Of a DNA stretch of 64,000 nt, positions 23,530-26,806 are shown piece by piece; the first letter of the stretch is position 1; every line of letters begins with the position of its first letter. Made by a program: the position numbers and the translations under genes. The notes beneath the pieces were generated by a model, which saw nothing but the letters and a program-made list of their open reading frames with translations, searched no databases and was not told where the DNA came from. The DNA is from Chloranthus sessilifolius. Its lineage: Eukaryota; Streptophyta; Magnoliopsida; Chloranthales; Chloranthaceae. Location: positions 14,784,088 through 14,848,087 of the forward strand of contig CM037593.1 of the NCBI GenBank assembly GCA_021018995.1, written 5' to 3'.

Positions 23530-24599
23530 CATAGGTCTGGAGAGTACTGCAGCAGTCTTGAGACGAGATCCATTGCTTCAGGTGGCATGCGCTTGTGGAA
23601 TATCTGAAAACAGATGCAAGTAAAAATGTCATTTAATGTAGGAATCTCCATAGAAAAGCGGTTGGTAACCGTTGTGACACATTTATAACAAAGCTTTGCA
23701 AGAGCGAATCCAAGACTCGGGCATCCACGAGCGTACCATACTGGGAAGTGGAACCAGAATGTGGTGATCATCTGATTTTTAGTTCGTAGTGGGACATTTC
23801 GAGACCCACATCCCAGCACCACTAGGCACCAAGGTTATGAATGGCATTAGATTCACTCATATCCAGCTTAGATAGACATAAATGCTCCAAAGCTCACTCC
23901 ATCCTAGAGAGATGAAAATAGAAAAACAGATAAGCAGCAGAAAATCAATCAGTACCTTGTACCATGGGTGAGCTTTAATTTGTGGGAATTTGAACTATGT
24001 ATAGTTGGGATTCATACATTTAATTTGGAGTACCTAAAACCTAAAATGGAAAAATGTAACATGTGAATATAGAAAGGGATGCCTGATGTCAAATACATGC
24101 CATACTAATTGTTTATGGGCTAGATTATCAAACAAAAAAATCACCTTGCTGATTTCAACAAGCTGGCCGCCGCCACTCTCACCAGGAAAGAGAGGCTGTT
24201 AGAAAAAAGAATAAAAGTTTAGATACATTTTGCTGCTCGAAGTCTGAAGCATTTATATATTGGACTATAAATGAGGAAGCTACCTGTCCAAGCAATAGTT
24301 CAACTAGAACACAGCCAGTAGACCAGATGTCAATAGCAGTGGTGTACTCGGTGGCTCCAAATATAAGCTCGGGAGCTCTATAATACCTAGAACATATATA
24401 TATGATATATTGGCTCTCCTTTGGCCTGTTAAGTTCAAATCCCCCAAGAAGAGACAATAAATCATCATAAGCCATAACAGAAATTTAAGATTGATAGCAG
24501 GATGAAAATATATGGGATTTATTTATAAAGAAAAGAGCATACCAAAACTTTTGCGCTTCCAAAGTCACATAGTTTCAGCTGGTGAGTATGAGGGCTGAC
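23530..24599 (-). pseudogene. Shaggy/GSK3-type kinase, five-exon fragment
   Basis: Five exons in correct order have GT/AG borders. 24543-24599: VSPHTHQLKLCDFGSAKVL with the DFG motif. 24284-24425: [20 protein letters not shown] and [17 protein letters not shown]. 24145-24195: [17 protein letters not shown]. 23956-24040: VLGTP then IKCMNPNYT-stop-FKFPQIKAHPWYK. 23603 down to about 23530: [20 protein letters not shown]. Exon borders match plant shaggy kinases, so this is a DNA-level copy, not a retrocopy. It has lost the ATP-binding half and C-terminus. Damage includes one extra base in exon 2 near CSRYY (142 instead of 141 bp), an 11-bp loss removing TREE, and a stop in exon 4. Intact genes act in brassinosteroid signalling. 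A MITE fills the intron upstream of the first exon. Confidence 0.9.
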
Positions 24600-24600
24600 C

Positions 24601-24826
24601 TGTTTACAGTTTGTCGGGTTCAGGTTGGGTGTAGGTCTAGGTCTAACTAGTAGGTTGAGTAAAGGTCAGGCTATTTCGAACAGGTTCGGTTCAGGTTCTG
24701 CTCAAGGTTTATTTAGTTAACAAATTGGTTCAGGTTCGTCAAGAGAACTGATATGATCAACAGGTCAGGTTCAAGTTGACCATAAACCCGCCCCGAACCC
24801 GACCTTTTTGCATCCCTGTTCATAGG
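24601..24826. mobile_element. MITE-like element rich in GGTTCAGGTT
   Basis: Words such as TCGGGTTCAGGTTGGG, GGTTCGGTTCAGG and CGAACCCGACC fill the stretch, and the right end, read in reverse, is CAGGGATGCAAAAAGGTCGGG-like. This resembles plant hAT MITEs beginning TAGGGATG. The left end does not match well and no target duplication was found. It lies in the intron upstream of the kinase exon. Confidence 0.5.
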
Positions 24827-25038
24827 TAAGCTGGAATCATATTAAACAATTCAATTGATTCGTGAAAATTTCAGCACTAGTGTTAGATTCAGGAGCGAAT
24901 GCTGAATCGAACGCTCATTCATTTCGAATTGTAGGATTTCTCTTGAGAGGCTTAAAGAAATCTTGAACAAGCACAAAAACTGAATCTTGATATTACTTGG
25001 GAGATTAATTTCTTTGAAGTAGGAAAGACGAAACTTAC

Positions 25039-25385
25039 CAAACCATAACAGCCGACGGAACATAAGTCTAATAAAATTGAGGACATCATGCAAGGAATCC
25101 TTCGAAAACCCAGTCCAAGTCTTTTTGCAAGTAGGAGAGAACTTGACATAAAGTGCCAACAGTACCACATTGATCCAATACGAAATCGAATTCGCCAAGG
25201 CAGCGCCTTTGAACCAGAGGCCCAACTTGAACACTAGAATCCAGCATACGAGTACGTGAAGTGAAGCTGTAACACTCGACGCTATCGTCATTGGGAAGAC
25301 GATGTTTTGAGTTTGTAAGAATCTAAGTTGGCATTGGAGTAGACCAACCGCGAAAAGACTCGGGATCAGTCCAACAAAAAGATTA
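25039..25385 (-). pseudogene. MATE (DTX) transporter, internal exon fragment
   Basis: The frame reads LIPSLFAVGLLQCQLRFLQT, QNIVFPMTIASSVTASLHVL, VCWILVFKLGLWFKGAALAN and SISYWINVVLLALYVKFSPT, then a loop (CKKTWTGFSKDSLHD). This is the conserved middle of plant MATE transporters, membrane proteins that export metabolites with proton exchange. Two hydrophobic membrane spans are visible. Near the end, after FIRL, two bases are missing; beyond this the sequence still encodes VPSAVMV and ends at a good donor GTAAG (25038). MATE exon 1 of the same strand lies at 39549-39820. A direct repeat ATCAGTCCAACAAAAAGATT flanks the upstream side (25364 and 25411). Confidence 0.88.
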
Positions 25386-25594
25386 GAAAATTGTAGTTTC
25401 CAAAATTCAGATAATCAGTCCAACAAAAAGATTGAAAGAGAAGGAATTGGCCTGCACAGGCTATGGAATTTCAATAAAAATGAGTCTAGAATTACAATAA
25501 TAAATGGGGACAAAACACAGATGATAAGAAAAATTATATGATAATTATATATGGTTCTCCATATATGTTGCAACAAAAAGATACAATACAATAC

Positions 25595-25683
25595 CTTTCC
25601 ACGTTTTGTGTACCTAGGTTCATGAAGATATTGGGGCATCTAGATAGTCTTTCGGAACCAGTCTCTCCAACAATGACGAGAAC
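25595..25683 (-). pseudogene. DEAH-box RNA helicase, single exon fragment (motif I)
   Basis: The exon has AG/GT borders and reads VLVIVGETGS then, after loss of one base, KT and PQYLHE..YTKRGK. It is the motif I (Walker A, GETGSGKT) exon of Prp2/Prp16/Prp22-type splicing helicases. The intact exon would be 90 bp; this is 89. The frame is broken inside the nucleotide-binding loop. No other part of the gene is nearby. Confidence 0.85.
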
Positions 25684-26012
25684 CTGCTTAGAATTGATAA
25701 ACACATTATTAGGAATAAGCATAACAAATTAACTATATAGATTGCTTGCAGAACTGTAATAAGGGCACTAGGCCACAGGGACCCCTAGCGCATAATGTGC
25801 ACCTTCTGCCTTTAACAACACTGATTATGTATAGCATGCCAACCCCAAAAGAAGCAATGCCATAGCATTAGTAACTCCAAGGAGACCTGATGTGGTTGTG
25901 TTCAAACAGAACTCATTCATAGAAACATGCTAAAAACTAGACATGTATTAATGTTAAGAAAACCATAGGATGAAAGTCATAGAGTGAATTCTTAGGCATG
26001 TAGGCTGCTGAC

Positions 26013-26153
26013 CTGTGCTGCATCAGAAATCAATAGAAACATAAGATCACTGCCGAAAACAGTTTCCCAGATGTCACCCAGAGTTCCATTCTCTTCAGTA
26101 AATCCAGCAGCACGAGCTTCCTCAAATGAACGAGAGCCTTTCTGCAGTCCAAT
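26013..26153 (-). pseudogene. Ketol-acid reductoisomerase, single exon fragment
   Basis: A 141-bp exon with AG/GT borders encodes [40 protein letters not shown] and LISDAAQ without a break. This is the NADPH-binding region of plastid ketol-acid reductoisomerase (valine/isoleucine pathway). The rest of the gene is absent, so it cannot make an enzyme, but the exon itself is undamaged, suggesting a fairly recent capture. Confidence 0.9.
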
Positions 26154-26428
26154 CTGCATTAATGAACAACAATGAAAACATAATGGGACTTTGTAAAAAT
26201 AAACTATCTTTAAAATTATGATCCCATCAGTACAATAACAGAAATTATTCACCTTTTCAACAGGTGATCAATTTCAGGAGAAAAAAAGACATAAACCAGT
26301 TGAAAAAATTGCCAAAAATAAGAAATTACACAATAAAATGGAAGCATTAATTCTCACAAATAATCAAGTACCCAAGAAAATGGAAGCATTTTAGACAAGT
26401 AATAATCGAGAAAACACGGAGAACATAC

Positions 26429-26660
26429 CTAGTTTCTGCGAAATCCAAGATCTTCGCGAATCCAAGAAGAGCACCAATGCCTGCTTGGGATCAAGATCGT
26501 CAACAGTGGCGATGAAAGCAAGAGCATCAACGTACTCGCTAACGCTGAGGCCGTGATCCATCAACCTCTCTCTACTCCGCTGCGAGATCTGGGCTTGGAA
26601 GCTCTGTACGATCTACTACTGATGCGAAAGCAGAGGGAAATTGGACAAGAAATCCCTATC
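26429..26660 (-). pseudogene. COG1 (conserved oligomeric Golgi subunit 1), first-exon fragment
   Basis: The frame reads [40 protein letters not shown], then [20 protein letters not shown], then [20 protein letters not shown] and a donor GTATGT at 26428. Order and spacing match the N-terminal region of plant COG1, which tethers vesicles at the Golgi. Two adjacent TAG codons interrupt it (26612-26617 region). Only this exon is present. Confidence 0.8.
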
Positions 26661-26735
26661 TGCATTGCTGTTTACAAGCAAGAAAGCTACACACACAACT
26701 AAGTGTTAGGAATAGTAAATCAACTAATAGCATAC

Positions 26736-26806
26736 CAAAGATGATTTGAGTCATACTCGGCTGACAGCAGCTCATCTAAAGAAGCACCAGTCTCAGGACA
26801 ATACGA
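26736..26806 (-). pseudogene. Unrecognised exon-like fragment
   Basis: The minus strand shows an acceptor-like CTAG, then SYCPETGASLDELLSAEYDS and NHL, then a donor GTATGC. The amino-acid composition is protein-like and it continues the row of captured exons on the same strand. I cannot name the gene. Confidence 0.35.

Follow-up and report, generated by a model that had tools for sequence, protein, structure and literature searches.

A row of pieces from five genes was identified in a 64,000-nucleotide stretch of Chloranthus sessilifolius (hereafter the window; positions are counted from its first letter, and the sequence is plant DNA). The row (23481-26677, minus strand) contains pieces of COG1, ketol-acid reductoisomerase (KARI), a DEAH RNA helicase, a MATE transporter and a shaggy/GSK3 kinase, and we consider it, with a probability of about 0.9, to be the inside of a Pack-CACTA-type element, a non-autonomous transposon of the CACTA (En/Spm) group. 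This reading is based on two diverged copies, at C2:72.6 Mb and C13:90.3 Mb, in which gene pieces are found between CACTA ends; we classify these two copies as Pack-CACTA elements and the window row as the relic of such an element, without its ends. The window copy is without both ends, lacks two internal stretches relative to the C13 copy, and sits between two other repeats.

Copies with CACTA ends on C2 and C13

The genome searched comprises 2.17 Gb in 32 contigs, among them C2, C5, C6, C9, C10 and C13. A part of the candidates was scored in the searches with the row (40 of 175), with COG1 plus the right end of the transposon (40 of 1,995), with the right-end 150 bp (40 of 99), with the repeat to the left of the row (40 of 103), with a PIF/Harbinger-type element (20 of 4,910) and with Transposase_21 (150 of 1,763), and the corresponding copy numbers are lower bounds.

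On C2 and C13, the row was found in pieces, in the same order and on the same strand, at about 90-97% per segment; window similarity to these copies spans 23481 to 26677, with the left border uncertain by approximately 20 bp (a weak 30-bp match to C13 is located at 23459-23488). The C2 copy includes all five gene pieces in window order and strand (90-97% per segment). Its ends are CACTACAAAAAA...TTTTTTGTAGTG, the left one being read as CACTACAAAAAAAAAGG and the right one as TTTTTTGTAGTG, with TTG flanking both ends and 28,178 bp between them; the right end was found by search and then read. The C13 copy runs from TACTACAACAAAAGG to TTTTTTGTAGTG over 6,817 bp, with AAA on either side. Thus, CACTA terminal inverted repeats are present at both ends on C2, and on C13 the left end has T for the first C. 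The target site duplications of 3 bp are different in the C2 and C13 elements, so that independent insertion must have occurred at least twice. The two copies also share further sequence to the left of the row, which ends at CACTACAA or TACTACAA and is followed by GCCGACGGC-type repeats. Subterminal repeats of the GCCGTCGG type are found at both C13 ends; the motif occurs at 10 positions near the left end on C2, at four near the left end and two near the right end on C13, and at none in the window. An earlier note on this DNA had proposed the capture of several genes by a transposon and had asked for other genome copies with the same exon order; both proved correct, the latter for C2, C13 and further copies.

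The C13 copy holds pieces of four of the five genes and retains 68 of 146 bp of KARI. Its extra sequence resembles further MATE exons; the MatE match (E 3.8e-4) is below the Pfam cut-off and unlisted in a longer scan. In both copies, the 5' part of COG1 lies next to the right end, and COG1 plus the right end recur at at least five further places (two of which were read). The right-end 150 bp matched at all 40 scored candidates, including the C13 and C2 copies. In the C13 element, Pfam scans of both strands over 6,269 of its 6,817 bp (92%) were negative for transposase domains. All 150 scored candidates for Transposase_21 in the genome are above the cut-off, and none is tied to the C2 and C13 ends. 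One CACTA end, at C5:154.85 Mb, has a transposase at a distance of 14 kb; it was dropped as a candidate because the transposase is found beyond that end, on its outer side.

Gene pieces of the row and their sources

The gene pieces were identified by searches against solved structures (PDB) and Pfam. The MATE piece matches DETOXIFICATION 14 (E 1.5e-20), the KARI piece matches the rice enzyme (E 8.3e-21), and the GSK3 piece matches a plant-type kinase (E 6e-19) and GSK3-beta (E 1.5e-18), as well as Pfam Pkinase (3.8e-11). The DEAH piece, with X put at its frameshift and stop, matches a splicing helicase (E 6.6e-8). Similarities of such strength are not due to chance. The COG1 piece in its short window form has no match in Pfam and no credible match in PDB; the name was first given for its resemblance to Arabidopsis COG1. 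The longer captured COG1 copy on C13 matches PF08700 (Vps51/EXO84/COG1 N-terminal, E 2e-8), and over 263 bp the window piece shares 92.4% identity with an open frame on C9 (L044; 458 codons, cut by the edge of the sequence stretch examined), which is its predicted intact source. These structure and Pfam matches, together with the C9 frame, agree with the five-gene row on the minus strand as it had been described in the earlier note, at approximately the same coordinates. It should be noted that the chance of five pieces lying on one strand is 2 x 0.5^5 = 0.06, which is weak by itself; the strand agreement counts because order and strand recur in the diverged C2 and C13 copies.

Intron flanks, with several exact exon borders, had been claimed for all pieces; this is true of most pieces and not of COG1. 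The COG1 piece (26412-26677, -) is wholly coding and has two stop codons relative to the intact gene; it has no intron border, since the supposed donor site is read through in the intact gene (KLGMSSV). Both splice borders are canonical in the KARI exon (26013-26153, -) and in the DEAH exon of the splicing-helicase type (25595-25686, -), which carries a one-base deletion (frameshift) and a stop relative to an intact exon at C2:1.17 Mb. The MATE exon (25039-25375, -) keeps its 3' border, lacks the 5' border and is presumably frameshifted relative to MATE proteins. It is followed by a MATE intron stretch (24613-25038, -) with a GGTTCAGG-rich block (24613-24803, with inverted ends), which is also found in a separate repeat family. 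Five GSK3 pieces complete the row on the same strand: both borders are kept at 24543-24599, at 24284-24425 (supported by Pfam and structure search as well as sequence, with the frame disturbed near its start) and at 24145-24195, whereas one border is kept in the other two, namely the 3' border of an exon end at 23956-23994 and the 5' border of an exon start at 23532-23603.

The DEAH piece probably derives from the intact exon at C2:1.17 Mb (89%). Several blocks of the row recur more widely. The GSK3 block (23860-24546) was found with the same borders at at least four places (89-90%); two of these were read and have about 2.2 kb in common at 95%, indicating that the block belongs to another repeat. 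The MATE intron block is present at at least 13 places (82-86%), and the two that were read share a longer repeat, i.e., a third family. DEAH blocks at 88-94% were detected at six places beyond the composite copies (14 of 14 candidates scored), one of them being the intact exon, and DEAH and KARI blocks occur in still other places of the genome. The recurring blocks may go back to relatives of this element that have decayed, or to fragments that one transposon passed to another. A tentative extension, which we consider possible and rather doubtful, is that gene pieces pass between different repeat families as a pool copied from transposon to transposon, and are not taken afresh from genes; if true, gene fragments would be a shared pool among the transposons of this genome.

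Other rearranged pieces were also observed. At C10:105.6 Mb (L034 702-1322, -), a KARI exon is fused with other sequence in one long open frame, representing a rearranged KARI piece. At C6:65.1 Mb (L054 141-596, -), a GSK3 exon piece lies beside an open frame resembling some other gene, i.e., a second gene-piece composite. A search of viral contigs with the COG1 piece returned 45 pattern matches, with no relative among them.

Borders of the window copy and competing explanations

Comparison of the copies revealed two deletion joints in the window row. At 24613-24620, about 2.2 kb of the C13 and C2 sequence is missing between similar short sequences, and at 26412-26419 about 1 kb of the C13 sequence is missing. 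The alternative, that these are duplications of insertions absent from the window, was rejected because the extra C13 sequence is MATE-exon-like at the first joint and includes more of COG1 at the second. The tight packing of the gene pieces, which had been noticed earlier, is partly due to these internal deletions.

To the left, the row is adjoined by another dispersed repeat (22146-23460), which is broken off at 23460. At least six places match 23265-23460 at 92-97%, all stopping at 23460 although the query went further; two of these copies were read, and both go on differently past this position. To the right lies another dispersed repeat (26671-27371), which has TTTACAA in common with COG1 at the joint and has 12 more copies in the genome (90-94%; all 38 candidates scored). 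It contains the unnamed exon (about 26720-26790) that had been counted as a sixth member of the row and consequently does not belong to it. In three copies of the right-hand repeat that were read, the leftward sequence differs from the row. Position 26671 was rejected as an element end since these three copies extend leftward; the query started at 26670, so that the other nine copies are uninformative in this respect. A search for terminal repeats with a duplication (21.0-23.7 kb against 26.5-31.5 kb) found no pair with 8, 9 or 10 bp, and the best pair with 3 bp (14/16) was equalled by 2 of 20 shuffles, with nothing beyond shuffles. The lack of terminal repeats around the window row is explained by the loss of both ends.

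The region from 22960 on is repeated 45.3 kb rightward (C10:14852310 onward) and at C10:12.05, C10:12.31 and C2:115.6 Mb (95-99%); these repeats are large recent duplications. Correspondingly, there are at least four more near-complete matches to the row (98-99%); one starts 45.3 kb to the right of the window copy, and one begins at query position 264. Two of the near-identical copies extend leftward through a long interspersed element (LINE) at 16.4-22 kb, and one matches 23763-64000 throughout (96.4%). We therefore rejected the four as copies of the element: they belong to large duplications, and element ends cannot be read from them. The end-less form of the row has been carried along in large duplications on C10 and C2.

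Several points weigh against a Pack-CACTA origin. A CACTA end, GCCGTCGG repeats and a flanking duplication are all absent from the window row itself, so that its origin rests on the copies. The C13 left end carries T in place of the first C, the DEAH piece and the MATE exon of the window are missing from the C13 copy, and 7.9 kb of the C2 element were unread. No transposase is linked to these CACTA ends. No intact source was found for KARI: all 10 candidates were scored, and each is a composite copy, another fragment or, in one case, a match of 44 bp. Outside the composites, the closest MATE relatives reach 81% over the exon (25 of 25 scored).

Other explanations were compared with these data. 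It is unlikely, if worth considering, that the window copy arose when a Pack-CACTA interior was copied from elsewhere into a break during repair, rather than by transposition and subsequent loss of the ends. In keeping with such repair, each border meets an unrelated repeat and is devoid of terminal repeats, and TTTACAA is common to both sides at the right joint; however, end loss by deletion gives the same borders, and there are two more deletion joints inside the row. That the row is a plain segmental duplication of a degraded gene cluster, with no transposon capture, appears very improbable. Four copies do lie in large duplications, including the one that matches from 23763 to the end of the window, but the C2 and C13 copies share the element and not the flanks, have CACTA termini with different duplications, and the intact COG1 is located on C9.

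Several gene pieces with introns on one strand are also reminiscent of a Helitron, which the earlier note had favored as the carrier; gene-capturing Helitrons of maize contain rows of exon pieces from several genes, and differ from the elements described here in their ends, target duplication and mode of transposition. The copies that bear ends show CACTA termini, CACTA-type subterminal repeats and 3-bp target duplications, and Helitron capture is, therefore, hardly credible. The best candidate for a hairpin with CTRR in the interval that had been suggested ends at 22483 with a score of 10.1, which is at background level (9 of 83 candidates in the window reach 10), and it falls inside a segment (22146-22530) that is similar to a different repeat; on the right side of the row, no match to the 5' consensus with fewer than two mismatches was found. 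Pfam scans revealed no Rep/helicase at 22-32, 31.75-41.75 and 41.5-51.5 kb (both strands) or at 12-22 kb (minus strand), although non-autonomous Helitrons are without Rep/helicase anyway. A Pack-MULE, the other proposed carrier, is the least probable of all: gene pieces with introns in a transposon with terminal inverted repeats are typical there too, but around the row there is no terminal repeat pair with a duplication of 8-10 bp, and the duplications of the two bounded copies are of 3 bp. An end-less row of this kind can pass for Helitron capture, and this is a warning against naming the carrier from one end-less copy.

For the Pack-CACTA origin, the following course of events can be suggested. 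Transposase would have been supplied in trans by other CACTA elements of the genome, and the gene pieces may have been acquired stepwise, with COG1 probably acquired early, since several family members have it next to their right end. End-joining of broken DNA could have cost the window copy its ends. In principle, the exon borders that remain could be spliced to one another in a read-through transcript; because of the stops and the frameshift in the pieces, an extended common reading frame is unlikely.

Known systems and other features of the window

The closest precedent is Tgm-Express1 of the soybean wp locus. This CACTA element of 5.7 kb (PMC1947982) carries parts of introns and exons from five host genes that are unrelated to each other; it keeps its ends and is inserted in an intron of a gene, and chimeric transcripts were shown to contain its spliced exons. 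It is similar to the C13 copy in being a CACTA element of comparable size (5.7 vs. 6.8 kb), and fragments of five host genes are found in it as in the row. Conversely, the genes are different, and Tgm-Express1 has ends and demonstrated chimeric transcripts, whereas the window copy is end-less. Pack-CACTA elements of Arabidopsis and maize are likewise non-autonomous, with CACTA ends and pieces from several source loci, according to two reports (PMC8903248, PMC13317346), the former of which describes the several source loci and the latter a capture model of tandem insertion, complementary end loss and re-mobilisation. Host gene fragments have also been captured by Chenopodium CACTA elements, for which CACTA structure is also described (PMC8978399); the examples described there lie in elements that bear a transposase, in contrast to the C13 element over the 6,269 bp that were scanned. 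As a five-gene Pack-CACTA, the present example is clear: copies with both ends are known, their two target duplications differ from each other, and one source gene is intact. It represents a known kind of gene shuffling and no new mechanism.

A PIF/Harbinger-type element occupies 27372-31552 (-), with limits taken from its copies, and contains Myb_DNA-bind_3 and DDE_Tnp_4 with a downstream Cauli_VI domain (RNase H1 N-terminal, E 2.3e-15), the position of which next to a Harbinger transposase looks unusual. At least 16 or so long copies at 86-88% were detected among the 20 candidates scored of 4,910, and no convincing pair of end repeats with a 3-bp duplication was found for this element. Outside the row, there are pieces of an R2R3-Myb gene (31.91-32.0 kb, +, below the cut-off), a cytokinin dehydrogenase (36.06-36.75 kb, +, E 6.8e-9) and DNA polymerase phi (47.6-49.0 kb, -, E 1.8e-8). 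The segment 39534-39826 (-), for which a Pfam scan gave nothing, presumably corresponds to exon 1 of another MATE gene, with a short stretch inserted into it. The LINE (16.4-22.2 kb, -) contains DUF4283, endonuclease, reverse transcriptase and zf-RVT domains, and its 5' end carries a stretch resembling a zinc finger. At 27316-34950, TA runs lie within at least six short palindromes (CTGGCTGTTGTATATA...TACAACAG).

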